The translations under genes were made by a program, and so were the position numbers. Positions 1,586 through 18,354 of a stretch of 64,000 nucleotides of DNA are shown here, one piece after another; within the stretch, counting starts at the first letter, position 1, and each line of letters begins with the position of its first letter. The DNA is from Candidatus Kryptobacter tengchongensis (GTDB lineage: Bacteria > Bacteroidota > Ignavibacteria > Kryptoniales > Kryptoniaceae), in the NCBI GenBank assembly GCA_001485605.1, contig FAON01000012.1:1-64000 (forward strand). Reading direction: 5' to 3'. The notes under the pieces are model-generated. The model worked only from the letters and a program-made list of their open reading frames with translations. It had not been told where the DNA came from and made no database searches.

Positions 1586-1846
1586 CTAAATTAAATTATC
1601 AACTGGATTTTTGTTTAACCCGATTACCTCCCTACCTCTCCACTTATCCCGAAGAGTATAAATTATCACAGAGTCAACCTCGGGCTCTATTATTTGCAAA
1701 AGTTTAAACCGCAACTCAGCGAACTTCCCTTCGCTCAATTCGCCCTCAAAAACAGAATTTTGAACCCAATGCAAATATCTACGCAACAGTTTGCAAACCT
1801 TATTTACCCTTTTTTCCTCAACATCGTAAACAACTATATAATACAT
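1586..1846 (-). CDS. cas2: CRISPR-associated endonuclease Cas2
   Basis: An 86-residue protein with the typical Cas2 start (MYYIVVYDVEEKRV), a ferredoxin-like beta-alpha-beta fold with the conserved Asp (residue 8) after the first strand, and normal length. Cas2 forms the integrase scaffold with Cas1 for spacer acquisition. It is the last gene of the type I-B operon, 22 bp after cas1, and is followed directly by the operon terminator. The window has no second adaptation set, so this one should serve both effector modules. Confidence 0.95.
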   Translation of the reverse strand: MYYIVVYDVEEKRVNKVCKLLRRYLHWVQNSVFEGELSEGKFAELRFKLLQIIEPEVDSVIIYTLRDKWRGREVIGLNKNPVDNLI

Positions 1847-1868: not shown

Positions 1869-2945
1869 TTAATACCACCAAACCTTCAGGGGATTATATA
1901 CCTCATCGCCAAACAAGTGTTTTATTAATTTGTAGCATTCAAGTCGAATTAAACCTCTATACGATACATTTCGGTTAAGTTTTTTGTGCCTTATGCTTGA
2001 TCTCATTAATTCATCAAACTCTTTTACAAATAGCTTTCGCCCATCTTCAGATAAATAACAAAAATTTAATTCACTTATAAAATGCTCCTTTGATATCTGC
2101 CCGCGATTTATAATTTTAAAAATTAACCTATCAACGATAACTGGCTTAAAAATTTCAGCAATGTCAAGCGCAAGAGAAAATCTTCTATCGGATGGCTCAT
2201 GTAAATAACTTATAGTTGGATTTAATTGCGTCTTGTAAATTTCACTAAGCACAGTTGTGTAAAGCATTGAGTTACCAAACGATATAAGGGCATTTATAGC
2301 GTTTTCCGGAGGTTGTTTTGTTCGTCTATCAAATCCAAAAAATTCATCATCTATTATAAAGTCCCACGCATTATAATACGCGTTTCTAATATGACCTTCG
2401 CACGCCATAAGATCGTGAATATTCATACATGATTCTATCTTTGTTCTTTCACTTTCAATAGCTTCAATGTAGATATTAAGCCCCTCTGAAAAAGTATATG
2501 ACTTTAAATTTCTTAACATATTATAGCTTGCCCCTTCAACAAATTTTCTCGCAAGGAAAATCCTCAAATCATCAAAAATATAATTTTCAACCTGCTTTAC
2601 AATTAACCTCCCCGAGTTTAAAAATTCACGAGGATAAAAACTTCCAGAATAGAACCCATAATAATTGAAAACATGCAAAACGATATTATTCTGATTTAAA
2701 AAATTCAAAAACCTTGTATTAAATGTCATGTCGCCAAAGATGTAAATTGAATCCACATCTTCAACAGGTATTGGCTTACGCTTGATATCACACCCATCAA
2801 CTTCATTTTCCAATTCTGGATAACCAGCAAGACAGAGTATATCATCATCCATTACATCTTGCTTGGTATCAAAAGGCTCAAAATAAAGGGTGTTATCTTT
2901 TCTTCTCAAAATTCCAGAGGAAAATATATAATACGGTCTTGCCAC
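1869..2945 (-). CDS. cas1: CRISPR-associated integrase Cas1 (type I-B)
   Basis: A 358-residue Cas1 of normal length. The N-terminal beta domain is followed by the helical catalytic domain. The metal-binding residues are visible as Glu183 in a CEGHIRNAYY segment, His249 in SYLHEPSDRR and the acidic pair Asp261/Glu264 in LDIAEIFKP. Cas1 inserts prespacers at the leader-repeat junction with Cas2 and Cas4. The start codon is GTG at 2945 (GTG GCA AGA CCG) without a strong ribosome binding site, 31 bp after cas4, suggesting co-translation within the operon. Confidence 0.97.
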   Translation of the reverse strand: MARPYYIFSSGILRRKDNTLYFEPFDTKQDVMDDDILCLAGYPELENEVDGCDIKRKPIPVEDVDSIYIFGDMTFNTRFLNFLNQNNIVLHVFNYYGFYSGSFYPREFLNSGRLIVKQVENYIFDDLRIFLARKFVEGASYNMLRNLKSYTFSEGLNIYIEAIESERTKIESCMNIHDLMACEGHIRNAYYNAWDFIIDDEFFGFDRRTKQPPENAINALISFGNSMLYTTVLSEIYKTQLNPTISYLHEPSDRRFSLALDIAEIFKPVIVDRLIFKIINRGQISKEHFISELNFCYLSEDGRKLFVKEFDELMRSSIRHKKLNRNVSYRGLIRLECYKLIKHLFGDEVYNPLKVWWY

Positions 2946-2976: not shown

Positions 2977-3483
2977 TTAAGACCAGCATAATTCAAAATA
3001 ACTGCATCCCTTACACTTAACTTTTTCAATTCTATCTGGCAAAGTTTCACTTTTAATAATTTTAGCGATATCATTTAACAGTTCAATTATTATCTCATCA
3101 TCTCCATCTTTAAGTTCAACTTCAATTTCTTTTTTCAACCTTGGGTAATTTATTTTCCCCTTGGCTTTTACCCCTTTCTTTTTAAGGTAAAAAATATAAT
3201 ACTTCACCTGCCAAATATGTCCCTCACTAAACGAATCTGATTTTTTTACTTCATGTATTATCCCATCTTCAAACTCAAACCAATCAATTGCAATGACATT
3301 ATCAATTTGAAGTTCTTTATCCTTGTCCCTGTAAAAAGAGGCGCTTAAAATTTTGCCAAGTAAAACAAGTTCCGAATTATGTTCCATTTCAATATGATTG
3401 GCAAATAACCATAATTGTCTTTTGCAGTGGAAATAGTAATTGACCATAACCCCTGTTATCCTCGGATTCTCAAATATCATCAC
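2977..3483 (-). CDS. cas4: CRISPR-associated exonuclease Cas4
   Basis: A 168-residue Cas4, a RecB-family nuclease with a C-terminal iron-sulphur cluster that trims prespacers and selects them by PAM. The four cluster cysteines are visible: Cys20 in YFHCKRQLW and Cys157, Cys160 and Cys166 in KCKGCSYFELCW. Acidic and lysine residues in the middle (IDWFEFEDG, WQVKYYIFYL) match the nuclease core. The start overlaps the cas3 stop by four bases. Length is normal for the short type I-B Cas4. Confidence 0.93.
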   Translation of the reverse strand: MMIFENPRITGVMVNYYFHCKRQLWLFANHIEMEHNSELVLLGKILSASFYRDKDKELQIDNVIAIDWFEFEDGIIHEVKKSDSFSEGHIWQVKYYIFYLKKKGVKAKGKINYPRLKKEIEVELKDGDDEIIIELLNDIAKIIKSETLPDRIEKVKCKGCSYFELCWS

Positions 3484-5726
3484 TCAAGTATATTTGTTTC
3501 AAACTCATCAACTAAAAGACCAAGTTCTTTATCATAGCCAGCAAGGCAAAAAAGGGTATGTGAATGTTGATAAATCTGACCATTCCTGTGTAATTTGAAA
3601 AATTGAGGATATGCAAGTGGCATGAAAAATTTTACAACCTCAAAATAATTTCCACTCTCACGCATTTTTAAATAATCGTTCTCATAACACGATGGGACAA
3701 TCTCAATAGAACCAATTAATCTATGAAGATCTTCATCTGCGATTTTATTACTTAACATTGGATAAATTTCTTTCCTCAACCTCAAAAAACTTTCTCTTGT
3801 CTCGTTAAAAATCTTGCTTTGCTTTTGCGTGAACCCATCAGCATATACGCTTTCAATAAGATTTAAAATATCAACTTCATTTATTCGCTGTACCTTCAAA
3901 AGTTCTGATATAGTTCTATCAAGTAATTCCTTATCATAAATTTTCAAATCATCGTCAAGATATCCCGTAAAGATAAAAACATCTGCGTAATTTAATCTCC
4001 CCCGGCGATTTACTCGCCCAAACCTTTGAACTAATCTATCAATTGGAGCCACATCTGTAAATAAAACATCAAAGTCAATATCAAGGGATACTTCAATCGC
4101 CTGGGTTCCGACAAGGATTTGAACACTTTCATTTTTTAAACTCTTTTCAATCCTTTCTCTATCAATTAAAGCAAATCTTGAATGAATAAGCTTGCTTTCC
4201 CCCCTCGCGAATTCTTTTAAAACATTGTAAATTTCCTGGGCTTTTTTAACTGTGTTACAAACAACAAGGACCCTTTTCCCATCCTCCAAAAATTTTTTAA
4301 TCCGATCAACCCCATTTAAAATGCTATCATTTATAAGGTTAATCTTATGCCTTGAGATTTTACGCAACACCTCTTCCTCAGCAGTTATAAATGTTTCAAT
4401 TTCAAGTTCTCTCTTAAAAACTTCACACAAAAATTTTGGGAAAGTTGCCGACATTACCAAAATTCTGGCTCCAAATTCGTACTTTAAGATTTTCAACGCT
4501 TCAATTAACAATCCTATTACCCTTGCATCGTATGAATGAACCTCATCAAGTATAACAATCCCGCCAGCCATTTCAGAAATTCCCATTTCAAATCCAGGTA
4601 AACCAAAGATTTCTCTTAAAAGTTGAAAATGCGTTATAATTTTAAATTGCTTATAAATTTTCTTGCTTAAATCAACAAATGCATTTGCAAATTTTTTGGC
4701 TTCATCTGGTGTATATTCCCTATCCCTAAAACTTTGATAAATGAAATATCCAGCTCTGTGATGTTTCATTCCAACGAGATCTTCACCAAAATACCTTACA
4801 AATCTTTTGAACATATCATTTATGCTTGCGGTATAAGGCAAAATATAAAAGACCCTTTTAGTTCTCCTATCATTTTGATTTTTTTCAACCCAGAACAGAG
4901 AAGCCTCTGTTTTCCCATATCCAGTTGGAGCAACTAAGATAATATCTTTATTTTTCATATCTTCGCTTTGCATTTTCAATTGCACATCAGTGAATTTTTC
5001 AAACCTGATAATCTCTGAAATTTCATTTTTCAATAATGGGATTTCCAAATTGCCAGACGATGCAAGGTAATCACAGCCAAGCACAAAGCCACGCATAAAA
5101 ACATGTTTCAACCACACCACCCTGTCAATTCCCGATGATTTGCTATCCTCGTAAGATTTTACCGCAAAACTGAAAACATCTAAAAGTTCATCCAATGAAT
5201 TTGGAATTTTAAAATTTGTTAATTTCTTTCCGATAAATTCCTCGCTCAAATCTGGAATTAATTTCATCATTTCAACAAGTTCATTAAAATTTTCCTCAAT
5301 TTCACGCAACGCTTTTGTGTATCTTTCATAACCAGGTGAATTTTTACGATGTGTTGAATATTTACTTTTAAGTTCATCTATCTCTTTATGATGGCTTGCT
5401 ATCCCAAGTGCTATTAACTTTTTAATTTCACTTTCATATTCAAGACATGCGACAAATCCAGCTGAAATTATCTCGTGTCTGTAACCCCACCTTTTACCCA
5501 ACCTTAAACTTTCCTGAAAACCTTTTGCGGATTTGCCAAAATCATGAAGAAAAAGAGCATAAAAAACATAATCCCAAAAATTAGGCTCATTGATAAGTTT
5601 AGGAACATCGGGGAAAATTTTCATCATCTCTTTTAAGACCGTTAATACATCAAGCGTGTGCTCATAAAGTGTTTTTTCTGGCTCTGTTTTCGCAAGTATC
5701 TTCCACATGTAAGTTTCATTTCTCAT
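3480..5726 (-). CDS. cas3: CRISPR-associated helicase-nuclease Cas3 (HD plus DExH)
   Basis: A 748-residue Cas3 that unwinds and degrades target DNA recruited by Cascade. The N-terminal HD nuclease domain shows His22 (YEHTLD), His61-Asp62 (LFLHDFGKS) and ASHHKE near 110. The superfamily-2 helicase follows, with Walker A APTGYGKT (266-273), DEVH (394-397), motif III MSAT and motif VI QRFGRVNRRGR. All motifs are intact, so the enzyme should be active. The start lies inside the 3' end of the preceding signal-peptide gene (11-bp overlap), consistent with tight translational coupling. Confidence 0.97.
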   Translation of the reverse strand: MRNETYMWKILAKTEPEKTLYEHTLDVLTVLKEMMKIFPDVPKLINEPNFWDYVFYALFLHDFGKSAKGFQESLRLGKRWGYRHEIISAGFVACLEYESEIKKLIALGIASHHKEIDELKSKYSTHRKNSPGYERYTKALREIEENFNELVEMMKLIPDLSEEFIGKKLTNFKIPNSLDELLDVFSFAVKSYEDSKSSGIDRVVWLKHVFMRGFVLGCDYLASSGNLEIPLLKNEISEIIRFEKFTDVQLKMQSEDMKNKDIILVAPTGYGKTEASLFWVEKNQNDRRTKRVFYILPYTASINDMFKRFVRYFGEDLVGMKHHRAGYFIYQSFRDREYTPDEAKKFANAFVDLSKKIYKQFKIITHFQLLREIFGLPGFEMGISEMAGGIVILDEVHSYDARVIGLLIEALKILKYEFGARILVMSATFPKFLCEVFKRELEIETFITAEEEVLRKISRHKINLINDSILNGVDRIKKFLEDGKRVLVVCNTVKKAQEIYNVLKEFARGESKLIHSRFALIDRERIEKSLKNESVQILVGTQAIEVSLDIDFDVLFTDVAPIDRLVQRFGRVNRRGRLNYADVFIFTGYLDDDLKIYDKELLDRTISELLKVQRINEVDILNLIESVYADGFTQKQSKIFNETRESFLRLRKEIYPMLSNKIADEDLHRLIGSIEIVPSCYENDYLKMRESGNYFEVVKFFMPLAYPQFFKLHRNGQIYQHSHTLFCLAGYDKELGLLVDEFETNILE

Positions 5727-6180
5727 TAGGTTTTAAAATTTTTTCTATTTCTCTTAGTAACTCTTCAAATTCTGAAACAACTTTGTCCGTATTAGCTACA
5801 ATCCCCTCAGCTGCTGACTCAACAACATCACTTCCAGCAAAACCAAGTGTGCTCTTTAAGTAAATTGGAAATAGCATCCTTTCATCGTCATATAAAAGCC
5901 AAATAACAGAATACATAGTTGATATATTGTTCCGCCAATTATCTCCCTTAAATCTATCCATTGTATATATCAATATCCTAAACCTCAAACCCTTTGGAGC
6001 AATAAGAAGATTAAACATCTCCGATTTTCTAAACTTTTCCTTAACATGATAAACCAATCTACGACCGACAATATCTTCTGCATTATCAACTACTTCAACT
6101 TGAATTTGAGAGAATAATTGATCTTGAAATAAAACCAAAAAGAGCGAAAGCACAAAAAGAAGTTTAATTCTCCGTGCCAT
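5716..6180 (-). CDS. Signal-peptide protein of unknown function inside the cas operon
   Basis: A 154-residue protein. The chosen start (ATG 6180, reading MARRIKLLFV) gives a textbook signal peptide: basic N-terminus, a hydrophobic core and a likely cleavage after LFSQ. A longer frame reaches 6408 but lies wholly inside cas5 in another frame. The mature part is a mixed alpha/beta domain ending in a Glu/Lys-rich helix, without Cys or a recognised catalytic motif. It overlaps the cas5 end by about 17 bp and the cas3 start by 11 bp, so it is transcribed and probably translated with them. A secreted or periplasmic product between core interference genes is unexpected. I do not recognise the family. 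Confidence 0.75.
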   Translation of the reverse strand: MARRIKLLFVLSLFLVLFQDQLFSQIQVEVVDNAEDIVGRRLVYHVKEKFRKSEMFNLLIAPKGLRFRILIYTMDRFKGDNWRNNISTMYSVIWLLYDDERMLFPIYLKSTLGFAGSDVVESAAEGIVANTDKVVSEFEELLREIEKILKPNEK

Positions 6181-6808
6181 AGAAATATACCCCCCAATTT
6201 TTTTCTTTATCATAAAAAATTGGCTGATGTGAATACTGTATAAATTTGTTAACAATGATAAATGGTCTTCTTTGTCTCCCAACTCTTGGTCTTTCAAAGT
6301 CATATTCAAAGTAAAGTGGAAGAGACAATAACACGCCCCCAACACCTTTGAAATCAAATGGTACAACAGTGTGACCAAATCTAACTGGTTTACTCTTCTC
6401 AAGCACAACCTTTTTTATTTCTTCAACCTTTGCGAGCTCTTGTGTTCTGCCTAAAACCAGAGGAAATTCAGGATAAAGGAAATATCTTTCAAATTCGGAA
6501 TTTAGAATGTAAATGTAAAGCTCTGGAAAAGTTAAAAATTCTCTTAACACGACATTTGATTTCGCTTCGTATTTCCGTTTTAGTGTCAATTCATAAATTA
6601 ATTCAAGATCCTGACCTTTGCTTTCATAAAGAAAAACATATCCAAATTTAACCTCATCTGGAGTGACAATTTTACCACACGCGGATGAAATCAATCCTAA
6701 GACAGTGCTTGGCGGTGGAACTTCAAGTGTCGGTTGTACCCCTGAAACAAAATTTGGGTTTCTAAAAGAGGATACGATTCCACTTATTTTAACACGGATA
6801 ACTTCCAT
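6164..6808 (-). CDS. cas5: CRISPR-associated protein Cas5 (type I-B)
   Basis: A 214-residue Cas5. It carries the family's N-terminal signature, a RAMP first strand leading to SFRNPNFVSGVQPTLEV and then PPPSTVLGLISSACG. Cas5 caps the 5' handle end of the crRNA in Cascade and contacts Cas8 and Cas7. It is the first gene after the palindromic element that separates it from cas7, and no strong Shine-Dalgarno sequence precedes ATG 6808. It fits the Cas5t/Cst type that accompanies the Cst1/Cst2 genes upstream. Confidence 0.92.
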   Translation of the reverse strand: MEVIRVKISGIVSSFRNPNFVSGVQPTLEVPPPSTVLGLISSACGKIVTPDEVKFGYVFLYESKGQDLELIYELTLKRKYEAKSNVVLREFLTFPELYIYILNSEFERYFLYPEFPLVLGRTQELAKVEEIKKVVLEKSKPVRFGHTVVPFDFKGVGGVLLSLPLYFEYDFERPRVGRQRRPFIIVNKFIQYSHQPIFYDKEKNWGVYFYGTEN

Positions 6809-6962: not shown

Positions 6963-7994
6963 TCACATATTTACAACTACATCGCCAACAAGCTCAGCAA
7001 ATTTCTCAATCGCTTCTTTTGAGCTATAAATTTGAAGCCTTTTATCACCACCAAATATAAATCCACTGAACTCGCTACGGAAATTCTCATCAAATCCATC
7101 TAAAAATCCAGGCATTATCCCGACATATACATCAGATACAATTATACCCGCGTAATCAATTAATGTCTGCCTTAACCCCGCATAATTGAAATTAACTTTT
7201 CCATCTTTCTCGTAAGCAAGATTCATAAATATGTGATTCCCACCTCTTACAATTGCCATTATAATAAGCCTCGGTACGACATCCGTCAAATGTTGTGTTT
7301 GTTTCGCTCCACCAAAAAGATAAGCAAGCGAAAGAATCGTTTCCTTTGCTCTTTTAGCTCTTACATCCGATGGGAGAACATAAAGATCGCCAATTTTTCT
7401 AGCTCCTGATCTTTCAAGGGATTCTTTTAATTCCTCATCTCTTTCAAGCATATCTTCATCAAGATTCTTAAACCCAGCTTGACTTTTAACATAAAAAACC
7501 CCAACTCTTGAAAGATCAAGTGAGAAAATCCCCTGCAAAATTGTTGAATAGAATTCATGCTCATAAGGGACTGGATCGCCCTCTTGCCTTGCCATAACTC
7601 CATAATCTTGAACTGGCTCAACACTCAGCACAGATACAAGTGGTGAGCATTTCAATGGTGATACACGAGTAACCGTCTTATCTGCTCCTCGCTCCTTCAC
7701 AGCTCTCATATACCCAAAAACATCATCATCGGGATATTTGAATGGATTTGCTTTCGTAAAGGCGATTTTCTCAGCTCTTTCTACTGGCGAAAGTTCCCAG
7801 CTGAAAATTTCCTGCAATGTCATCCTCCACCAATATCTCCATGCCTGAGCTGAAACATACGGATAAATCTCCCTACCTTTTCTTATTGCTTTAACACGAA
7901 CGATATTTTCAGTTCTTTCGCTTGCATCCGTTCCAGCATTGTTTAATGCTGAATGTGGTGCGTCAATTAAAACATATCCTGCAACCATAAGCAT
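6963..7994 (-). CDS. cas7: CRISPR-associated protein Cas7 (Cst2/DevR family)
   Basis: The Cascade backbone subunit, present in several copies along the crRNA. The N-terminal region carries the DevR/Cst2 signature DAPHSALNNAGTDASERTEN, followed by VSAQAWRYWWR, and the length (about 343 residues) is typical. The frame can extend four codons to GTG 8006, but the Shine-Dalgarno AGGAGG overlaps that codon. ATG 7994 sits 11 bp downstream of it and is preferred. It lies between cas8 and the palindromic element. Greater demand for Cas7 than for later subunits makes a transcript break after this gene functionally sensible. Confidence 0.94.
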   Translation of the reverse strand: MLMVAGYVLIDAPHSALNNAGTDASERTENIVRVKAIRKGREIYPYVSAQAWRYWWRMTLQEIFSWELSPVERAEKIAFTKANPFKYPDDDVFGYMRAVKERGADKTVTRVSPLKCSPLVSVLSVEPVQDYGVMARQEGDPVPYEHEFYSTILQGIFSLDLSRVGVFYVKSQAGFKNLDEDMLERDEELKESLERSGARKIGDLYVLPSDVRAKRAKETILSLAYLFGGAKQTQHLTDVVPRLIIMAIVRGGNHIFMNLAYEKDGKVNFNYAGLRQTLIDYAGIIVSDVYVGIMPGFLDGFDENFRSEFSGFIFGGDKRLQIYSSKEAIEKFAELVGDVVVNM

Positions 7995-8031
7995 GGCTGT
8001 TTTCACCTCCTGTAAATTTTATTTTTAAGTT

Positions 8032-9324
8032 TTACTCTGTTGGTTCTTCTACTTTCCTTTCAACAAGCCAGTTATGCAAAACCTCATAAATTCTAAATAA
8101 CATCAAATCTCTAACCTCACTCCATCCCATTGCACCTTCAGGAAAAATTAAGTTGACATATTCATCAAACCTTAAAAGTGGTTCCCTTAATCCAGCCCGT
8201 ATGCCATCTTTGATCAAAAATCTTAATACATTCCTAAACTCCGCATAATCCTTCGCCCTCTCAAGTTGCTCAAGCCGTTTAACAGAGTCAAGGCTCTGGA
8301 TTAAATTTGCGATTCTGTCAGCAAATTCCCTTATTGTGTTAATTCTTTTTTCATCCATTTCTTTCACCTCCCTTAAATAAAATTTTAAAAGTTCCCAATT
8401 ACCAAAAATTTCCCTTTTATCCTTGAAAAAATACCTTACTATACTTTCACCTCTTAGCAATCTCTCATAGACTTCGTTTCTTCTTCCACCAGAAGCCTTA
8501 TTTACAATTTTTCTCCATTCATCATACGCTTCCGTTTGTTTAACATAAGCAAGAAACCTGAAGACCGGCGTTGGGACATCAAAGACTTCAACATATGGAC
8601 TTTGACCGTAATTGCTAAAGTAATAAAATCTTATGGAGACATCTTCATCAATCCAGTTCTCATCGTACCTTATTACCATATCCTCAATGCTTTGGAAAAA
8701 TGAATTCACTGGGTCATTGATATTATTTGAATAACAACCTGTAAAGTTATTCAGAGTAATTTGTTTATATAAGTTAGTCACACAATTTTTAGCCCAATAT
8801 TTCATGACTTTCTCCGAGTTTGAATGAAGAAGCAAAAATTTGCCACCGCAATAATGAAGGAAAATTGGCATAAATTGAATAGCAAATAAGCACGCAGAAC
8901 ACATCTCAAGACCAAGCGAAGCCATAGGGAAGAAATTAACAAAATCACCAGAACCCGTTAGAGGCACAAGCTCTCTACCGATTCCGTATTTTCTTTCAAC
9001 ATTGCTTTTATTCCTTCTACCACAGGCAAAACATGTCCCAGCAGGCAAAGGTGCCCCTATATCAGATATCCAGCCTTCAAGAAATTTTCTGTAATAACTT
9101 TGACTACCAGATTTTTTATGCGTCACTGGATGATTCCCAGTGAAAATTGATTCCAACATCTTTTTCCACCCCGCTGTAAAGTAAACATCAATAAGTTTTG
9201 GATATAATTTTTCTAAATCAGCGAAGTCAACATCTTTAACCTCTTTCTCTGCTAATTCAGCGATGATATAAATTCCAGCATCAACAAATGGATTCCCTGT
9301 TATATCAAAAATTTTACCCATCAT
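8032..9324 (-). CDS. cas8: Type I-B Cascade large subunit Cas8 (Cst1, CXXC-CXXC family)
   Basis: A 430-residue protein starting MMGKIFDITGNPFVDAG, the opening typical of Cst1. The family's two zinc-binding pairs are present at Cys98/Cys101 (CFAC) and Cys142/Cys145 (CSAC). Cas8 recognises the PAM and recruits Cas3. This family with Cst2 and Cas5t defines the Tneap/Thermus-like branch of type I-B. The second Met (9321) could also be the start. A separate small subunit is not visible; in this branch it is commonly supplied from within the cas8 message, which I cannot confirm here. Confidence 0.93.
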   Translation of the reverse strand: MMGKIFDITGNPFVDAGIYIIAELAEKEVKDVDFADLEKLYPKLIDVYFTAGWKKMLESIFTGNHPVTHKKSGSQSYYRKFLEGWISDIGAPLPAGTCFACGRRNKSNVERKYGIGRELVPLTGSGDFVNFFPMASLGLEMCSACLFAIQFMPIFLHYCGGKFLLLHSNSEKVMKYWAKNCVTNLYKQITLNNFTGCYSNNINDPVNSFFQSIEDMVIRYDENWIDEDVSIRFYYFSNYGQSPYVEVFDVPTPVFRFLAYVKQTEAYDEWRKIVNKASGGRRNEVYERLLRGESIVRYFFKDKREIFGNWELLKFYLREVKEMDEKRINTIREFADRIANLIQSLDSVKRLEQLERAKDYAEFRNVLRFLIKDGIRAGLREPLLRFDEYVNLIFPEGAMGWSEVRDLMLFRIYEVLHNWLVERKVEEPTE

Positions 9325-9345: not shown

Positions 9346-9681
9346 TTAAAACAATTCGGAGATTTTAAATACCCGCCTTGGATATTTACCACCTTTACCT
9401 TTATCATATCTTTTCACTTTCTTTTTTATATCTTTCAAAGCGTTCCGATTTTTATACACCGTTATTATTGTGTCATCAATTGGATTCATAATTAGGACAA
9501 GCCCTTCAATTTTTTCAGCTATTTCAGGATCAACATCATCCGGGATATCTTTTTTCCTGACGAAGACAAATTTTGCACCGCCGTTGTAAATTTTGATTCC
9601 ATATTTAAGCGCCAGACCGATCAATTTTTCATTTATCCTTCTCATCTGGATTCTTTTTTGTGCATGCGTTGTAAACTTCAA
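9346..9681 (-). CDS. DUF4258-like protein
   Basis: A 111-residue basic protein. Its start FTTHAQKRIQMRRI matches the DUF4258 pattern (T-H-A-x-x-R-M-x-x-R), a RelE/ParE-like fold sometimes found as a toxin, and its C-terminus is rich in Lys and Arg. Translation starts at TTG 9681, nine bases after a perfect AAAGGAGGTGA, so it should be well expressed despite the weak codon. It is the second gene of the sigma-54-driven type I-B operon, between a 49-aa membrane peptide and cas8. Its role is unknown. No separate antitoxin with a DNA-binding domain is adjacent. Confidence 0.75.
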   Translation of the reverse strand: MKFTTHAQKRIQMRRINEKLIGLALKYGIKIYNGGAKFVFVRKKDIPDDVDPEIAEKIEGLVLIMNPIDDTIITVYKNRNALKDIKKKVKRYDKGKGGKYPRRVFKISELF

Positions 9682-9709: not shown

Positions 9710-9859
9710 TTATGCATCGCACTCCTTCTTTCCAGTATCAACGACTTCATCCTCAATCTCAATGATCTTTATCTCTCCATCAAGCATCGCTACTCCAAGA
9801 AGTATAAGTATTATCGGGATTGGAAGTCCAAAAAGTGTCTTGATAACATTATTATTCAT
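9710..9859 (-). CDS. 49-aa single-pass membrane peptide leading the type I-B operon
   Basis: A short frame starts at ATG 9859 behind a clear Shine-Dalgarno AAAGGAGATGAA and ends at TAA 9710. It encodes MNNNVIKTLFG, a hydrophobic segment of about 16 residues (LPIPIILILLGVAML), then an acidic tail (GEIKIIEIEDEVVD) ending KKECDA. The good ribosome site, orderly codon use and 28-bp spacing to the next gene support a real protein. It is the first product of the operon and would place an acidic tail at the membrane. Function unknown: it could be a leader peptide, a membrane-active peptide or a partner of the DUF4258 protein. Confidence 0.7.
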   Translation of the reverse strand: MNNNVIKTLFGLPIPIILILLGVAMLDGEIKIIEIEDEVVDTGKKECDA

Positions 9860-9887: not shown

Positions 9888-9907
9888 CCCCCACCCCCCG
9901 CCCGCCC
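9888..9907 (-). promoter_or_regulatory. Potential G-quadruplex in the 5'UTR of the type I-B operon
   Basis: On the transcribed - strand the bases read GGG-C-GGG-C-GGGGGG-T-GGGGG: four G-runs of at least three with single-base loops, the most stable intramolecular quadruplex pattern. It lies about 20-40 nt after the inferred sigma-54 transcription start and about 20 nt before the ribosome binding site of the first gene, in otherwise AT-rich sequence. Confidence 0.6.
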
Positions 9908-9934: not shown

Positions 9935-9952
9935 GGTCAAATATTGTGCCAA
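9935..9952 (-). promoter_or_regulatory. Sigma-54-like promoter of the type I-B cas operon
   Basis: The - strand reads TTGGCACAATATTTGACC. TGGCAC (9951-9946) is a perfect -24 element, and after N5 it is followed by TTGA in place of the consensus TTGC at -12, with the required GG-N10-G spacing. Transcription would begin near 9925. The adjacent upstream gene encodes a sigma-54 activator, which strongly favours this reading. A caveat is a perfect TATAAT (9932-9927) just downstream that could be a sigma-70 -10 box, although I find no good -35 at the proper distance. Confidence 0.7.
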
Positions 9953-10014: not shown

Positions 10015-10042
10015 CCGATATATCGTCGCCGTTATATCGTCA
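10015..10042 (-). promoter_or_regulatory. Tandem 14-bp repeats, candidate enhancer for the sigma-54 activator
   Basis: Two head-to-tail 14-bp units lie at 10015-10028 (CCGATATATCGTCG) and 10029-10042 (CCGTTATATCGTCA). They differ at two positions, and the first contains the perfect palindrome CGATATATCG. They sit at about -90 to -117 from the inferred sigma-54 start, the normal distance for upstream activating sequences bound by Fis-type activators. The second unit includes the stop codon of the activator gene itself. Confidence 0.6.
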
Positions 10043-11758
10043 CCGCCTATATTTAGGCAGGATTATACCAAGTTTTTTCATCTTGCTTTGAAGGGTTGTC
10101 CTCTTAAGACCAAGAGCTTTTGCAGTCTTGGTGATATTGTAATTGTTTTCACGAAGTTTAAGCTCAATATATTTCTTCGCAAGTTCATCAAATGTTAAGT
10201 TTTTCCCGCTCGTAATTTTTTCAATTTCATCCTTAATAATTTGCTCCTGCGCTTTTATGTTTGATTCAAAATGTTCGGGCAAATTTGTTAAAATTTGTTC
10301 ATCGTCATCAGCCATTGCAATCATGGCATCTATAACTCCTTCAAGTTCCCGAACATTTCCAAAACTCCAATCATACTCCAAAAACATATCCATTATCTCA
10401 TCTGACACACCTTTGATATTTGTTTTTCCGTAAAGTTTAGAATACTTATTTATGAATTTTCCCACAAGCTCGGGTATATCATCTTTTCTCTCACGCAAAG
10501 GTGGAATTCTAACTTGATGTCTTGCTATCCTACTGTAAAAATCTCTCAAAACCTTCCCACTTTCAAGCCATTCATCAGGCTCTTGATTAAGCCCGATAAT
10601 TATTCTTACATCTACCTTTTTTGTCGCCAAGCTTCCAACAGGCTGAATTTCACCGTTTTCAATAGCTCTTAGAAGTTTCGCTTGAAAAGCAAAATCAGTT
10701 TTATTTATTTCATCAAGAAACAGAACCCCACCATCGCATTCCTCAAAAATCCCTTTCTTGTCTTTTATTGCCCCCGTGAATGCACCCTTAACATGTCCGA
10801 AAAGTTCACTTTCAATGAGAGTCTCTGGAATAGAGGCACAATTGATTGCAAGATATTTTTTATCTTTTCTACTTCCAGAACGGTGAAACTCATTTGCAAA
10901 TAATTCTTTCCCAGTTCCACTCTCACCAATGAGCAAAACAACTTTAACTTTATCGTTCTTTGCAAGTTTTCTTAACTTTTTAAGAGCTTTTTTAAATTCT
11001 TCATTTTCACCTATTATCTCAATTTCCTCTTCTCCAGGACCACTTACAACTGGTTTTTCAATGTTGGCGTAATTTTGAATTCGTTCAACAAGCTCTGTGT
11101 ACGAAATTCCTTTCGGGAAGATATTAAAATATTTCTCCCCAAGCCTAAGGAAAGGTATCTCTGCAAGTGTTATTTCAATTTCATCTGTTGAAATTTTTCT
11201 TCCATTACTAAGCTCAATTTCAACTGGAATTTCCGGCTTGTAGAAAAACTTAGGGTTTCCTTCAACTTCAGGAGGTGAAACGAGGACATGATAGAGTTTG
11301 TCCTGTTTTCTGCCGACAAGCGTCATAGCAAGCGCTGCATAAACCGACATTGTTTTCCTTCCTCCAGCAACCGAGCAATGTATCACAACTTCAGGTCTAT
11401 TTGCAAGTTTCCTTATCTCGTTGGTTATAAAATTTGCAGCGGATTCATTTTGGCTGTCATTCCTTATATCATCAACTTCGTTTCCATCCTTATCCTTTAT
11501 AACTTTGATATTTCTTTCCACGAATCTTGTTTTCAATCCAATTTCATTACAAAACTTTTCAAACAAACCATTTAAAAGTGGCGGTATTCCTTTTTTAATA
11601 TCGCCCTCACAAATTAATTTTTTCCCAAATCCTGTCGTTATAACAAAAACTTCATCAATATCCACACCTTTCTTTTTCTTCAAATACCAGAGCGTCTCGG
11701 TTAAAATTTGTGGCGTTGAACCAAGAACAGAAACAAGTATATTTTTCGGCGACCGCAT
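10040..11758 (-). CDS. CARF-domain sigma-54-dependent transcription activator
   Basis: A 572-residue fusion. Residues 1-180 match the CRISPR-associated NE0113 family of CARF-type domains ([14 protein letters not shown] 13-26; [10 protein letters not shown] 131-140; [13 protein letters not shown]). Residues 245-490 are a complete sigma-54 AAA+ module: Walker A GESGTGKE (278-285), the sigma-54-contacting GAFTGA loop (325-330), Walker B GGVLFLDE (343-350) and the arginine region [18 protein letters not shown]. Residues 525-568 are a Fis-type helix-turn-helix. It should sense cyclic oligoadenylate made by Cas10 and activate sigma-54 promoters. It resembles RtcR in logic but has a different CARF family. 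It is the last gene of the type III-A operon and lies directly before the sigma-54-like promoter of the type I-B operon, its likely target. Confidence 0.93.
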
Positions 11759-11774: not shown

Positions 11775-12602
11775 TTACTGTTTTACTGAATCTAAGAAGA
11801 AAGAACCACGGTTTGTTATCCTGATTCGGTATGGTTTTCTCGTTTCCTCATCCACTTCAATCTCAATAAGACCATAGACTTGTAATCGTTCAACCTCATC
11901 TTTAAATTCCTCCACGATTTTTTCATATTCAAATCCACTCCTCGGTTTTTTATCCGATAAAATTTCAAGCAATTTAACTTCTCTTCCCTTCGGCAGGTAG
12001 AAGATCTCTGGGAGAAACACAACATTTCTAAATTCTTCATTCATGTAATAAACTTTACATCCTGTCAAAAATCCAGCAAGGGCACACGCTATAACATGAG
12101 CTTTTAAACCACCGGTTGGATTTATAAAGACTTCATATCCTTGTTTCTTCTTCTCAATCGCAAGATAAATAAACCTATCAACCATATCAGAAACACCTTT
12201 AACGAATTCATCACCCGCATATTTTTCATCATATCTGCTTGCCTCAAGAAAATATCCAGAAAATGTGGGATTATCGTAAACCAAATATCCCTGTGATTTT
12301 AAAAACCTTTGAAGTGTTCTTACGCAAATTTCATTTGAATAAGTGTTCGTCCCAGATAAATAAACTTCAATTTCCCGTGGGTTTTTACCTTCAACAACTC
12401 TCAAGAAAGTGTTCATCTCAGCTGAATTTTCCTTTGGATTTGCTCTCAAAAAATCAAAAATTTCATTCATAAAATTGACATCGTCAATTTTTTCTCTCCA
12501 GAAATCGCTATCCATCTGCGAGATTTTGCCAAATTCAGATTTGCTTCTTTGAAAATTCGTGAGAAGTGAATTGCCGACATTGATTATGTGAAATTGCTTC
12601 AT
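11775..12602 (-). CDS. CARF protein with C-terminal winged helix (APE2256-like)
   Basis: A 275-residue protein. The N-terminal 200 residues form a CARF domain with the nucleotide-binding features HIINVGNSLLTNF at the start, SGTNTYSNE near 85 and FINPTGGLKAH near 163, as in APE2256-type CRISPR proteins. The C-terminal 75 residues look like a winged helix (EKIVEEFKDEVERLQVYGLIEIE, then RIRITNRGSFF). No HEPN R-x4-6-H motif is present. Relatives include cyclic-oligoadenylate ring nucleases (Crn1 group) and CARF-HTH regulators, so it may degrade the signal, sense it for transcription, or both. It lies between csm5 and the CARF-sigma-54 gene in one operon. Confidence 0.85.
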   Translation of the reverse strand: MKQFHIINVGNSLLTNFQRSKSEFGKISQMDSDFWREKIDDVNFMNEIFDFLRANPKENSAEMNTFLRVVEGKNPREIEVYLSGTNTYSNEICVRTLQRFLKSQGYLVYDNPTFSGYFLEASRYDEKYAGDEFVKGVSDMVDRFIYLAIEKKKQGYEVFINPTGGLKAHVIACALAGFLTGCKVYYMNEEFRNVVFLPEIFYLPKGREVKLLEILSDKKPRSGFEYEKIVEEFKDEVERLQVYGLIEIEVDEETRKPYRIRITNRGSFFLDSVKQ

Positions 12603-12625: not shown

Positions 12626-13702
12626 TCATTCAAGAAATTTTACTTTAACCCAACCCATCGGATATTTCCCCTCAAATAGATTCCTTGTATTTCCCCACTT
12701 TCTGTTGTGTGGATTTCTAAAATTATTTATTGTAACCGCATAAACACCCGAAAAACGACCAACTCTAATCACGCATTCATTTTCATTTTGATTTACTCTA
12801 AATAAACTTCTCATCCTATCAATAATATCATGCATATCAAGGGCGAGTTTATAAAACTCTTGCTCTCGCTTAAATTCATCATTGTAAAACTCATTGCAAC
12901 ACTGAATTATGAAGTCTTTATTTAATTCCCTCGCTACACCTCTTACAGATGGTAGAAATTCATCAATTCTTATTTCACCTTCAAACTCAACTATTTTACC
13001 AGTATTAATTTGCCCCAAAAGCACTTCTTTTATCATTTGAATCCCAACCGTCGTAACTCTACCTTTCTTCTCGTCAACCCTTGCATTAAAAACCTCACCT
13101 ATTGCCATGACATCGTTGCTTATAAAGACATCCGAAACCTTTAAAGTCCTAAACGGATCTTTAGATATATCAGGTTTAGGTTCATCCTTTCCCTTCCTTT
13201 GCGAGAGAGCCCCCATAGCCTCAAGTTCCCAAGAATTATTCCCTGGACTTTCCGGTGGTTTATATCCCTTGCTTTGTACTATGCTATCAATTATCGCAGT
13301 TCTTATTGCTCCCTTGATTGAACTTCCAGGAATATACGGTTTAAAATCATCTGTTGTCCTAACAAAAGGCGAAATCAAAAGTTGATTGTTTATGTTATTC
13401 AGGTTTCTTTTATATTTATCCGCTATATTCGGGAAAACCTTGATTTTATACTTTGAAAACTTCTCTTCGTTAAAATTTTCCACAATCAAATTTCTTAACC
13501 CAGTTATGTTGCCATCTTCAACAAAAGTATAAAATTTCCTGAGTTGTTCCTGATTTAAACTTGAGATCAACTCATCTACAATTATCCTATGAAACATTTC
13601 ATTAACGATCACATAATCAAAGGGACTTAAATCTTGCCCCGCTCCAATGTGAACCGGTGTCAAAATTTGATACTTAACCTTATAAGTTTTCACATTGTCC
13701 AT
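12626..13702 (-). CDS. csm5: Type III-A effector subunit Csm5
   Basis: A 358-residue RAMP protein that caps the 3' end of the crRNA in the Csm complex. It has the Csm5 opening YKVKYQILTPVHIGAGQDLSPFDYV and the glycine-rich FKPYIPGSSIKGAIRTA loop near residue 125. The gene has a strong ribosome site (GGAGGTGT) and starts one base after csm4 ends. Its size matches the family, and its place after csm4 is the standard csm order. Confidence 0.92.
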   Translation of the reverse strand: MDNVKTYKVKYQILTPVHIGAGQDLSPFDYVIVNEMFHRIIVDELISSLNQEQLRKFYTFVEDGNITGLRNLIVENFNEEKFSKYKIKVFPNIADKYKRNLNNINNQLLISPFVRTTDDFKPYIPGSSIKGAIRTAIIDSIVQSKGYKPPESPGNNSWELEAMGALSQRKGKDEPKPDISKDPFRTLKVSDVFISNDVMAIGEVFNARVDEKKGRVTTVGIQMIKEVLLGQINTGKIVEFEGEIRIDEFLPSVRGVARELNKDFIIQCCNEFYNDEFKREQEFYKLALDMHDIIDRMRSLFRVNQNENECVIRVGRFSGVYAVTINNFRNPHNRKWGNTRNLFEGKYPMGWVKVKFLE

Positions 13703-13703
13703 A

Positions 13704-14648
13704 TCACACCTCCACTCTAACTTTTAAAGGAAAGGCGTAAGCAAATTGAACTATTTCTGGATTTGAATGAACATTGCTCACAATGCAACCGTAAAACTCC
13801 TTTACACTTCTTACTTTAAAAACGGAACCAGCTTTCATAAAGACAAGTGGTTTTTTAAAGGGATCAACTAAAGCAAAATAGTCACCAACTTTTGGATACT
13901 TGGTGAAAATTGAATACCATAGATTTTCAGCCTGACTTAAGTCATAATCCGTCGGGATAAAGTTTGAAATTGACATAAAAGCATTTGAATTTTCACTTTC
14001 TGGAAATTTATAATCCTCTTCAATTGATATAAATTTCAAACTTCCACGCCCCGTTGAAGCATCCGCTCCGAATCCTGTAAGTTCAATGTATGCTAAAATT
14101 TTCTCTAACTGTTCCCTGTTTAAAAAATTAGTTCTAACAGCAAACCACATCTTAAAACGCGACTCGTAGAATGTTTCTTCGGTTGCAAACAATTCTCCTG
14201 TTTCTCCAGTTGTAAAAGTTAACCGACTGATTTTGTTCCTCATTATATTGGTTGAGTGAATCCTCCCAAATTTATCTCTTTCCTTTTCTTCAGATTTAAC
14301 TTCATCACTTAAAACTTGAAATAATTCGCTCCAACTTAACTTATCTTTTACCCTTTCAAAGTTTTCAAATTTTATCAATTCTTTTTTCTTTGCCCTCTTG
14401 AAAATCTCCCTCTCTTCAACTTTTTCAGTCCTTTCAATTTCAATTATAGGTGTTGGCAGATAACCTTCGGGGAAAGCGTTTGAAACAAGTGTTGGTTCAC
14501 CATTTTTATTTGCCTCAATAAATTCTTTGCCAAATTTCTCACCCCATATACGAAAACACGCCCAAGCAAAATAGCCCCAAATTGTATCCGACTGAAGTGG
14601 GGTGATAATTGGACTTCTAATTTGAAAGTTTATTTTATATGTTTTCAT
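13704..14648 (-). CDS. csm4: Type III-A effector subunit Csm4
   Basis: A 314-residue Cas5-like RAMP protein that binds the crRNA 5' handle and Cas10. The N-terminus reads INFQIRSPIITPLQSDTIWG followed by YFAWACFR, and the C-terminal glycine-rich stretch FGADASTGRGSLKF is the typical Csm4 motif. The start overlaps the csm3 stop by four bases (ATGA), indicating coupled translation. Length is normal. Confidence 0.93.
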   Translation of the reverse strand: MKTYKINFQIRSPIITPLQSDTIWGYFAWACFRIWGEKFGKEFIEANKNGEPTLVSNAFPEGYLPTPIIEIERTEKVEEREIFKRAKKKELIKFENFERVKDKLSWSELFQVLSDEVKSEEKERDKFGRIHSTNIMRNKISRLTFTTGETGELFATEETFYESRFKMWFAVRTNFLNREQLEKILAYIELTGFGADASTGRGSLKFISIEEDYKFPESENSNAFMSISNFIPTDYDLSQAENLWYSIFTKYPKVGDYFALVDPFKKPLVFMKAGSVFKVRSVKEFYGCIVSNVHSNPEIVQFAYAFPLKVRVEV

Positions 14649-15346
14649 GACACTTCAACTTCTATTTTTAACTCTTCCGGGGAATAACTTTTTATTTCAA
14701 CATCTTCAAATTTAATTTTTCCGCTTCCCCTGCTCCCATATCCACCGAGACAATCAAGCTCAAGAAGTTTCATTCCCCGCATGATCGTCTCCTCAAAAAG
14801 TTTTTCATCCGTTTCGCCACCATCCCCAGTATCAAAGACACGATATACCACTTCAAATGCAAATTTAACCCCTGGTACAACTCTTTCAAGTTTTCTTGGA
14901 ACTGCCTTTGCCGTGATCCGATTTAAAGCATTTTCGGTTTTCTCCTCAACTATATCATAAACCGTAAGCCCCTTTTCCTGCATTTCCCTTCTGTATTCAT
15001 CATCAATAAAAGCATCTCTAAATATAACCCTTGTTGGACCACGTCTTTTAGCAACTTCCTCCTGCTTATCTGGCGAAGCGCCAAATACTCTACAAATTGG
15101 ACATTTTTCATCATCGCACTTATGAACTTCACCATTATTATTAACTTTATTAAAGGATAACTCAAGTAAACTTCTAATCTTCCCCTTTAGCGATGAACCA
15201 GGAATATATGGCTCATTTGTCAACGGATGTTTTAATACGGGATTATCCATTCCACCAATTTCAATAATATCACTGCTCCCTCCAATATGAAGCCCTGTTA
15301 AAACATTAATTTTTCCCGTTATAACTATATATTTTACAAGTTTCAT
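14645..15346 (-). CDS. csm3: Type III-A backbone subunit and target RNase Csm3
   Basis: A 233-residue Cas7-like RAMP protein. GLHIGGSSDIIEIGGMDNPV contains Asp34, which aligns by position with the catalytic aspartate that cuts target RNA in known Csm3 proteins. PYIPGSSLKGKIRSLLE follows as the crRNA-binding loop. A four-Cys cluster (CDDEKCPIC with a nearby Cys) probably binds zinc. A strong Shine-Dalgarno GGAGG precedes ATG 15346. Target RNA cleavage should be active, so Cas10 signalling would be switched off after cleavage in the usual way. Confidence 0.95.
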   Translation of the reverse strand: MKLVKYIVITGKINVLTGLHIGGSSDIIEIGGMDNPVLKHPLTNEPYIPGSSLKGKIRSLLELSFNKVNNNGEVHKCDDEKCPICRVFGASPDKQEEVAKRRGPTRVIFRDAFIDDEYRREMQEKGLTVYDIVEEKTENALNRITAKAVPRKLERVVPGVKFAFEVVYRVFDTGDGGETDEKLFEETIMRGMKLLELDCLGGYGSRGSGKIKFEDVEIKSYSPEELKIEVEVS

Positions 15347-15375: not shown

Positions 15376-15780
15376 TTAATCAAATCTTTCAACTTTTCCA
15401 TAATAATAACCAACAACAGCTTCAAAATGCTTGACAAAACCCTCAAGGAAATCCGTTTCATCCTTCACCTCGTCTACACATTTAGAGATAAAATTAACAA
15501 ACTCCTGTGGAACAAGCTTGCGTCCTTTCTGGTAATGCACTTTTGCCTTAAGCATTCTAATCAAAGGTTTAACCCTTTCAAAACCCTCCCCTTCAACTCT
15601 GTCAGCAAGTCCCCTGACCTCGTTGTAAAACTTCCTTAACTGCGAACTTTTCAACTCAGGATTCTTCGGGTTATTCCCGATGAACTTCTCTGCCCATTTT
15701 TGAGCCTCATTTGTCAACATCTCTTCCTTGATCACCCACTTTCCATCGCTTGTTTTTCTCAGAAAATATCTTTCTTCCAT
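15376..15780 (-). CDS. csm2: Type III-A small subunit Csm2
   Basis: A 134-residue helical, charged protein of normal Csm2 length, with SSQLRKFYNEVRGLADR and LIRMLKAKVHYQKGRK in the central helices, the segments by which this family is usually recognised. Csm2 forms the second filament along the target RNA. It starts at ATG 15780 behind AAAGGAGGAGAT, three bases after cas10 ends. Confidence 0.9.
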   Translation of the reverse strand: MEERYFLRKTSDGKWVIKEEMLTNEAQKWAEKFIGNNPKNPELKSSQLRKFYNEVRGLADRVEGEGFERVKPLIRMLKAKVHYQKGRKLVPQEFVNFISKCVDEVKDETDFLEGFVKHFEAVVGYYYGKVERFD

Positions 15781-15782
15781 TT

Positions 15783-18341
15783 TTAATCTCCTCCTTTTAG
15801 TTTTTTACCCCTATATTTGTAGAGAACATAGAAAATTGGAATGTTAAGTGTAAGCCAAAGTTTTTTATACTCTTCCTTTAAATTATTCTCCACAAGCTCA
15901 AATAATTTTTCCATCTCTTCTCGCCCTTTAACAATTTTCCCATTTTTCCTCTCAATAAGATTTCTTGCCACATCATATTTTAAAAGGTATGTAAACCTCA
16001 AACCATTGGGGTCCCTATTTTCGTAATATTCCCTTGCCATCATCTGATATTTTAGTAATCTATGCATAAATGTCGTCTTAACCTTTGATTCCTTTGAGGT
16101 AAGCCACTTCTCAAAATAGTTTCTCCATTCCCAAAGCTTCGGCAAAAATTCCCACCTTATAGTTGTATTAAAGATCGTTAAACTATCTTTACTCTTTGCC
16201 CCATCTTTATTTTGCTTTGATTTCTCAAGAAACTCATCCGCCATTAAAATACCTCTGTTGATTGGATATTTGGGTCCGATAAGAGCAATTCCAGCACTTA
16301 AAGTTATATTTTTATTCCATGTTGTAAATTCTCTAAATTTTCCATAAACCTCCTCTGCAACTTGAATTATTTCTTTCCATTCTCCAACAAGGACGAGATC
16401 GTCTCCGCCTGAGTAAATCACATATATATTTCTATATTTTGTTTCCAGCAGGTGATTTAGATAACCAGCAAAATAAAAATCAAAACTTCGGCTTAGTGTC
16501 ACATACTTTGAAATACTTAAATTTTTCGCAAATTTCCCCGAAAAAATTTGTCCGAGATTATCAACATCTGCTTTCAAAATCCCGATCATCGCTTTGCCTT
16601 CTTTTTCAATCTTTCCATTCTCACTATAAATAACCCCAAGCTCTGCAAGCTCCCCGAATGTTTTCACCCTGCCCAGAGCGTCTTTAAATGTCTGCTCAAT
16701 CTCGTGGACATAGTCAAAGATAATCTCATCTTCCTTTCTCCATACAGGGACATAATTAGCCAAAAACTTTACAGGATAAACAAACCCTTCTTCCCTTTTA
16801 AAAAGCTCAAGATAATAATAATCGCTTGTGATGTTTATCTCTTTTATTTTATGCAGATTAAGGTAAACATTCCCAAAAAGTTTTATATTTCTTCCTGTGT
16901 TTGAAGGATTATTCGCAGTATATGAAATTGCATCTACCTCTGTTAACCATTTTCCAAGCGCTTGAAATGTTTTACATTGCTTACATATTTCCACAGCTTT
17001 ACCCGTTTCGTCTGGTATAGTTTCAACTGCTGGATTTTCACCGCAAAATTTACAATGTCCATTTTTTCTCAATTCATCGTACAATCTATCAAGAATAAAA
17101 CTCTGCCCGCTTTTGAGAACCTCAAGAAATTTCTTTCTCTTTTTTCTCTCCGCCGAAATTTGAATTGACCCAAGCACATTCTCAAAATTACCCATCATCA
17201 ACTCACTGCCCGAAACCTCAACATCATAGGTAATGTTAAGCGAAATTTTGGCGTTGAATTCATCAAATAGCCAATTGGCAATTTCAATTTCTATTTCCCT
17301 CAGCTTATATTTTACATCTTCAAGATTTGGGGCAAGAACTATAAAACGACCACCTGCATTCATAATTACCGAAACAGGCGCCAATCCAAGTTTATCAAGA
17401 ACATAATGAACCGCCGCTTCACCAATTGCTTGTAAATAAAACGACCTCGCTCTTAAAATCTTACTTGCACCCTTTACATTTGTAGCCGACAAAGAATATA
17501 TAAAATCTTGGATACCGCTCAAATCGCCAATAACAAAAAGAAACTTTTTCTCCTCACGATTTTTTATCGCTTCTGTTGAATTTAATGTGTTTTTCCCATG
17601 GTGATATAAAACAAGGGCAAGTGCGATCGCAGATGTCGTCTTCAGATGATCGTAAAGCGAAACATCGGGCAAATCACGGGTTGAACTTGGAATGCACCAA
17701 GTATATTTTTCAAGTAGTCCCAAAACTGCCCCAATCCATATATTAAAATTATTGCTCAAAACCGAGGAATTTTTAAACTCAGCAATAAATCTATCCCACA
17801 AATTTTTATACTCATCGGTTAAATCATACGATTCTCTCTCAACGACAGGAAAAACATCTTCAGTAGGTTCAAGAGAAGTTAATTTATAAACCCAATTCTC
17901 CTTGCTTTCACCTTTTTCCTTGACATAGCTAAAAATAGAAATAAGTCGCTTTTTTCTGAAAGCCCCAACTTCTTCATCCTTGATATCTTCTGCTCTTGTC
18001 CTGTCCATACCGCTACTTAACCAATCTGCTTGTTGAATTATGTAATGAAGCGGAGTTAATGGTTTGTGATGTCTTGCGGACAAATTCTTAACATTGTCAA
18101 GAGGATCAGATGTCAATTGTTCGGATACATTTATTGGGAAAACATTTCCAAACAATTCAAAAAACTCGCTTGTCCATAGAACATGCTTGTATTTGCCAAG
18201 TTCAGGGCAAAGGTCACCTTCAAGATTCAAAGTTGACGAAGATAATCCCTCGTTCCCATGGACAGCTCTTTGCCAAAATTTTCCGATATCGTGAAAAAGT
18301 GAGGCGACAATTACCGCTTTTTTAATTTTTTCTAAATCCAT
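15783..18341 (-). CDS. cas10: Type III-A large subunit Cas10/Csm1, HD nuclease and cyclic oligoadenylate synthase
   Basis: An 852-residue protein from ATG 18341, which has AGGTG just upstream and begins 13 bp after cas6. A longer frame to 18455 would overlap cas6 by 100 bp and is rejected. It has the HD motif SLFHDIGKFW (about 15-24), a first palm domain (VIGDLSGIQDFIYS near 270), zinc pairs CKFC and CKQC near 430-456, and a second palm domain with the intact cyclase signature YSGGDDLVLV (GGDD about 645-648). It should cut ssDNA and convert ATP to cyclic oligoadenylate when the complex binds target RNA. That product is the presumed ligand of the two CARF proteins in the same operon. Confidence 0.97.
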   Translation of the reverse strand: MDLEKIKKAVIVASLFHDIGKFWQRAVHGNEGLSSSTLNLEGDLCPELGKYKHVLWTSEFFELFGNVFPINVSEQLTSDPLDNVKNLSARHHKPLTPLHYIIQQADWLSSGMDRTRAEDIKDEEVGAFRKKRLISIFSYVKEKGESKENWVYKLTSLEPTEDVFPVVERESYDLTDEYKNLWDRFIAEFKNSSVLSNNFNIWIGAVLGLLEKYTWCIPSSTRDLPDVSLYDHLKTTSAIALALVLYHHGKNTLNSTEAIKNREEKKFLFVIGDLSGIQDFIYSLSATNVKGASKILRARSFYLQAIGEAAVHYVLDKLGLAPVSVIMNAGGRFIVLAPNLEDVKYKLREIEIEIANWLFDEFNAKISLNITYDVEVSGSELMMGNFENVLGSIQISAERKKRKKFLEVLKSGQSFILDRLYDELRKNGHCKFCGENPAVETIPDETGKAVEICKQCKTFQALGKWLTEVDAISYTANNPSNTGRNIKLFGNVYLNLHKIKEINITSDYYYLELFKREEGFVYPVKFLANYVPVWRKEDEIIFDYVHEIEQTFKDALGRVKTFGELAELGVIYSENGKIEKEGKAMIGILKADVDNLGQIFSGKFAKNLSISKYVTLSRSFDFYFAGYLNHLLETKYRNIYVIYSGGDDLVLVGEWKEIIQVAEEVYGKFREFTTWNKNITLSAGIALIGPKYPINRGILMADEFLEKSKQNKDGAKSKDSLTIFNTTIRWEFLPKLWEWRNYFEKWLTSKESKVKTTFMHRLLKYQMMAREYYENRDPNGLRFTYLLKYDVARNLIERKNGKIVKGREEMEKLFELVENNLKEEYKKLWLTLNIPIFYVLYKYRGKKLKGGD

Positions 18342-18354
18342 CGCACCTAATACT

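Follow-up and report, generated by a model that had tools for sequence, protein, structure and literature searches.

Does the type I-B cas operon in this 64,000-nucleotide window (i.e., the whole stretch of DNA analyzed) have a sigma-54 promoter and, if so, which activator and which signal would switch it on? An earlier note had pointed to a near-consensus -24/-12 element next to a gene for a sigma-54 activator. The gene is indeed there (11758-10040, minus strand; AAA+ domain with GAFTGA) and rpoN is present in the genome (PF04552, 1.1e-55), but the note had overlooked the activator's CRISPR CARF domain and its place in a III-A operon. It is for these two properties that the site is of interest.

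Two cas operons and a CARF-sigma-54 activator

The III-A operon runs on the minus strand from 19206 to 10040, and its last gene, immediately upstream of the promoter, encodes the activator:

18355 to 19206, minus strand: cas6 (profile match)
15783 to 18455, minus strand: csm1/cas10 with HD and GGDD motifs, the presumed cyclic oligoadenylate (cOA) synthase (motifs, profile)
15376 to 15780, minus strand: csm2 (by position)
14645 to 15346, minus strand: csm3 (by sequence and position)
13704 to 14648, minus strand: csm4 (profile match)
12626 to 13702, minus strand: csm5 (profile match)
11775 to 12602, minus strand: CARF7/Cas_APE2256 ring-nuclease-like protein, a probable signal off-switch (profile matches)
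10040 to 11758, minus strand: activator of 572 amino acids, CARF (Cas_NE0113/CARF5), sigma-54 AAA+ (GAFTGA) and Fis HTH (profile matches)

The GGDD motif of the Cas10 palm is intact. In the activator, residues 15-223 match the Cas_NE0113 CARF (1.6e-40), residues 248-416 match Sigma54_activat and residues 528-563 match HTH_8 (Fis HTH). The GAFTGA motif is intact in the alignment and, with the Walker motifs and the Fis-type HTH, places the protein among the NtrC-class bacterial enhancer-binding proteins. The CARF motifs LGSTP and GGRKTMSV are intact as well and align with LGxxP and GGRKxMSV of the structures of the cA4 ring nuclease SSO2081. CARF classes were taken from the PADLOC models, which assign this CARF to CARF5; a CARF5/NE0113 domain with GGRK, located within a type III locus, is what would be expected by sequence of a type III CARF sensor. 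NE0113-type CARFs carry a ring nuclease name in NCBIfam. An AlphaFold model of the activator (two sequences; pLDDT 42) was too poor to judge the ligand pocket.

Two assignments to known families were rejected. Models for RtcR-type CARF-AAA-HTH proteins match only the AAA+/HTH half, from residues 244-248 on, and cover no CARF, while the neighbors are csm and I-B cas genes, with no rtcBA. The protein also falls outside the Csa3 family, having an AAA+ domain and HTH_8 in place of a winged HTH without ATPase.

The I-B operon lies downstream of the promoter and is followed by a CRISPR array:

9710 to 9859, minus strand: 49-amino-acid single-TM protein with LPxPIILIL..KE(F/C)DA, first gene of the sigma-54 operon (reading frame, conservation)
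9346 to 9681, minus strand: DUF4258-like protein of 111 amino acids, second gene (profile match)
8032 to 9324, minus strand: cas8b1/Cst1 (profile match)
6963 to 8006, minus strand: cas7 (Cst2/DevR) (profile matches)
6164 to 6808, minus strand: cas5 (profile match)
5716 to 6180, minus strand: small protein with a signal-peptide-like N-terminus (conserved)
3480 to 5726, minus strand: cas3 (profile matches)
2977 to 3483, minus strand: cas4 (profile match)
1869 to 2945, minus strand: cas1 (profile match)
1586 to 1846, minus strand: cas2 (by sequence and position)
927 to 1309, no strand assigned: CRISPR array with repeat GTTTCAATCCCTCACAGGTTCGATTCACAC or its complement (repeat search)

The promoter had been described as standing in front of cas8; it is upstream of the cas8b1 operon, but the genes for the 49-amino-acid and the DUF4258-like proteins come first. 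The former protein is unannotated; it is conserved across four genomes, and one relative (G407) lacks it. No significant remote relatives of the DUF4258-like protein were found in the PDB; it offers a possible parallel to the BrnT-like genes reported beside RtcR-linked CoCoNuTs (PMC11090510). The small protein encoded between cas5 and cas3 is conserved in the window genome (G000), G410, G409 and G407.

Promoter core and enhancer dyads

The gap between the activator gene and the gene for the 49-amino-acid protein (about 180-187 bp, gene-free on the minus strand) and the adjoining 5' leader contain the following elements:

10030 to 10039, minus strand: UAS dyad 1, CGATATAACG, 14 bp upstream of dyad 2 and right behind the activator stop codon
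10016 to 10025, minus strand: UAS dyad 2, CGATATATCG, with its center about -94 from the predicted start
9937 to 9951, minus strand: -24/-12 sigma-54 promoter core, TGGCACAATATTTGA (sequence match, shuffles, conservation in relatives)
9888 to 9907, minus strand: G-rich, quadruplex-type tract, GGGCGGGCGGGGGGTGGGGG, in the 5' leader of the sigma-54 operon

The TGGCAC-N5-TTGA element claimed for the minus strand was found at 9951-9937, where it matches TGGCACN5TTGC at 9 of 10 positions with the GG-N10-G spacing exact. The note had taken TTGA as a departure from consensus; GA does replace GC, but this is no defect; the full consensus, TTGCA, stands at this position in two sister genomes. Four sites with GG-N10-G spacing and a 9/10 match, TGGCACAATATTTGA among them, occur in the window. 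Dinucleotide shuffling of the gap, repeated 5000 times, never produced the strict element TGGCA[CT]N5TTG[AC]. Across the genome, TGGCACN5TTGA occurs 14 times (0 for the reversed control) and TGGCAYN5TTGM 54 times (6 for the reversed control). Of 30 genome-wide matches inspected, however, the majority fall within genes; these counts were thus dropped as proof, and the -24/-12 element alone is weak evidence. The case for a promoter rests instead on conservation and on the enhancer. G-rich tracts like the one in the leader are also present in G410, G409 and G406, in an AT-rich genome.

The two dyads stand in tandem, with centers near -108 and -94 relative to a start expected at about 9926, which is a normal enhancer distance in sigma-54 systems. 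Even when 3 mismatches are allowed, the genome has no second copy of the 29-bp double dyad. With up to 1 mismatch, the single UAS site is confined to this promoter in the window genome, G410 and G409. We therefore predict, from conservation and uniqueness, that the tandem dyads are the enhancer of the cognate activator, i.e., that the CARF-sigma-54 protein binds them and that the core is presumably used by sigma-54.

Conservation among relatives

The locus was compared with those of four Kryptonium sister genomes (G410, G409, G407 and G406) and of one genome from another genus (G401), whose activators are 78%, 69%, 68%, 62% and 39% identical to that of the window, respectively. The earlier note had proposed a comparison of the same interval and would have taken it as a refutation if relatives with the activator were found to lack the element. 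No such loss was seen: activator, dyads and GG-N10-G element are kept in all five, with the -12 weakened in G407. The cores read TGGCATAGTGTTTGC (G410), TGGCATAATATTTGC (G409), TGGCACAGTTTTGGA (G407), TGGCACAGTTTTTGA (G406) and CGGCATATCATTTGA (G401; CGGCAT..TTGA at -24/-12). Within Kryptonium, core identity to the window is 73-87%, as compared to 41-59% for the upstream spacer and 27-43% for the downstream sequence. The distance from dyad 2 to -24 is 74 bp in the window, 74, 73, 75 and 65 bp in the other Kryptonium genomes and 73 bp in G401; the 65-bp spacing departs from the others by about one helical turn. Across the Kryptonium genomes, the site plus dyads at the observed spacing were recovered in 1 to 20 of 3000 shuffles. 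In G406, both the recognition helix and the dyad (TCGGAATACCGA) are altered, as would be expected of a co-evolving activator-enhancer pair. Overall, these comparisons make a sigma-54 promoter, and its tie to the adjoining activator, well supported at the sequence level.

A coincidental -24/-12 match, with the I-B genes expressed from a TATAAT hexamer or by read-through of III-A transcripts and the activator working elsewhere, seems to us to have a very slim chance of being correct. Similar matches do lie within many genes, and no terminator was found between the III-A and I-B genes, which share a strand, so that basal read-through into the I-B operon is possible. The TATAAT at 9932-9927 (minus strand), on which the earlier note had built a dual sigma-70/sigma-54 promoter, is not backed by the sequence: at spacings of 16-18 bp, the upstream sequence agrees with a -35 hexamer at 0-1 of 6 positions, a promoter scan found no sigma-70-like promoter in the region, and the hexamer is not kept in the same interval of the relatives. 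The dual promoter was thus rejected as unsupported. Coincidence is also at odds with the core, dyads and spacing conserved in five other genomes and with a UAS found nowhere else in the genome.

Downstream of the activator, G401 has an operon unrelated to that of the window; the arrangement of activator, dyads and -24/-12 element is nevertheless kept, beside a III-B locus with RT-Cas1. At the strict dyad definition this genome did not pass the dyad-plus-site shuffle test, and P was 0.18 for the -24/-12 element alone; G401 was therefore judged on spacing and position. Several other features of its III-B island were observed. Adjoining the CARF-sigma-54 activator is a NE0113 CARF (PF09623, 2.2e-22) fused to a RelA/SpoT synthetase (PF04607, 4.5e-17; L057:5612-7042, C116), a candidate cOA-gated alarmone-type effector. 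A protein with a match to the Lon protease C-terminal domain and a weak Csx3 match, located after two unassigned genes (L057:4543-5715, C116), may be a CalpL-like protease module. The reverse transcriptase-Cas1 fusion of the III-B locus is encoded at L127:14128-16410 (C116).

Full-length CARF-sigma-54 fusions were found in 7 of 391 genomes of the class, 5 of these 7 also having Cas10; no plasmid carried a fusion covering 80% of the activator protein. G407 (97% complete) has no Cas10 palm match, no longer has the gene for the 49-amino-acid protein and has its -12 degraded to TGGA, while the activator and UAS are kept. This could look as if the switch decays after the signal source is lost, in a single case for which the assembly may be incomplete; it also counts against a relay from III-A to I-B, as the parts can evidently be separated. 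G409 has no csm genes beside the activator, where the contig ends, and has a GGDD-bearing Cas10 elsewhere in the genome. A chimera of the cas10 and csm5 C-terminal parts lies beside its activator (L054:11246-11779); the csm genes there are either deleted or collapsed in the assembly. The fusion in G014, which has no Cas10, has GGFTGA replacing GAFTGA and no comparable downstream promoter, and is probably something else. In G406, a second NE0113-CARF protein is encoded upstream of cas10 (L056:9713-10972), adjoining a Csx1-HEPN-type gene that is truncated where the contig stops.

A proposed relay from III-A to I-B

We consider it probable that, in these hot-spring Kryptonium bacteria, a cOA signal from the III-A system is relayed through the CARF-sigma-54 activator to switch on the I-B operon. 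The III-A Cas10 complex would sense invader RNA and make a cOA, probably cA4, which would bind the activator CARF and release the AAA+ domain from repression by this CARF. The activator at the two dyads would then loop to RNA polymerase-sigma-54 poised at the -24/-12 element and remodel the polymerase, with transcription starting at about 9926 and running through the genes for the small membrane and DUF4258-like proteins into those for I-B interference and adaptation. The adjoining ring-nuclease-like CARF protein would clear the signal and so reset the switch. The parts of this relay, their order, the conserved spacing and the uniqueness of the UAS can be read from the genomes; the use of sigma-54, the binding of this activator to this UAS, the CARF ligand and the induction of I-B on infection are what we infer. 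A search for one effector class, the Csx1-type HEPN effectors, found none in the window genome or G410, and transcription may therefore be the main signal output there.

We take the repression logic by analogy from RtcR, in which the CARF represses and its deletion leads to constitutive activity (PMC9650030); ligand-relieved repression is therefore the logic to be expected here. This precedent also speaks against a reversed sign, in which the activator would work constitutively until cOA, or the cleavage of cOA by the CARF, turned the I-B operon off, with type III taking over from type I. The ring nuclease name of NE0113-type CARFs would suit such a handover, as would Csa3, which illustrates that a CARF regulator need not be activated by its ligand; we nonetheless judge it quite unlikely.

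Two reports count against the relay, i.e., RtcR was not activated by cOA in vitro (PMC9650030) and cA4 left the DNA binding of Csa3 unaltered (PMC8844856). As RtcR has the same overall layout as the window activator, and two fusion carriers (G407 and G014) are without a Cas10 palm match, the activator might run the sigma-54 promoter in response to another CARF ligand, e.g., RNA fragments ending in a cyclic phosphate, as proposed for RtcR. We find this unlikely: the CARF here is not of the RtcR family, being CARF5/NE0113 with an intact GGRK motif, whose basic residue is mostly missing from RtcR CARFs (Makarova et al. 2014, PMC4012209), and the activator gene ends a III-A operon next to a ring-nuclease-like gene.

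Several known systems resemble parts of the proposed relay. In Saccharolobus, type III signaling is thought to be coupled to type I cas control by Csa3, a cA4-binding transcription factor with a CARF domain (PMC8844856, PMC8699464). Csa3 is archaeal, however, with a winged HTH, no ATPase, no sigma-54 and cA4-independent DNA binding, whereas the window activator is a bacterial sigma-54 AAA+ protein that has an enhancer and a -24/-12 promoter of its own. RtcR and the RtcR/PspF-like activators (of rtcBA and associated with CoCoNuTs) share the order CARF, sigma-54 AAA+ and HTH (PMC9650030, PMC4012209, PMC11090510), a UAS upstream of a -24/-12 promoter and a tie to stress or defense operons; RtcR differs in its RtcR-family CARF, unresponsive to cOA in vitro and without a CRISPR link in the 2014 survey, whereas the activator here has its CARF5/NE0113 CARF inside a type III operon and is proposed to drive cas genes. 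The type III CalpL-CalpT-CalpS system also turns a cOA signal into a transcription response via a sigma factor (PMC11229360), but by anti-sigma factor proteolysis and with no bacterial enhancer-binding protein. In Salmonella, a sigma-54-dependent transcript arises within the cas operon from a promoter upstream of cas1 (PMC3844500), which, unlike the one described here, is intragenic and weak (1.6-fold), was seen with an artificial activator and has no dedicated CRISPR activator. A I-B/III-A CRISPR-Cas "fusion" locus, evidently of the same type, was reported as novel for the same lineage, Kryptonia, in 2016 without mention of sigma factors or a regulator (PMC4737851); the proposed regulatory bridge is a new addition to it.

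The open-access literature searched held no description of a fusion between a cOA/CRISPR-type CARF and a sigma-54 activator, or of a sigma-54 promoter bridging type III to type I. We know of no earlier cOA-controlled enhancer-binding protein, and this one would be the first known to us if the relay is correct. On balance, we lean towards a cOA-responsive sigma-54 activator that turns on a complete I-B operon and that, given the III-B locus and different operon in G401, is part of a portable CARF-sigma-54 module. A sigma-54 transcription switch would then join the known outputs of cOA signaling, and one bacterial CRISPR system would arm another by converting an RNA-sensing second messenger into tight, ATP-dependent sigma-54 transcription. 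The DNA-targeting and spacer-acquisition genes could stay silent without the signal, which would provide a functional reason for the I-B/III-A "fusion" of Kryptonia.
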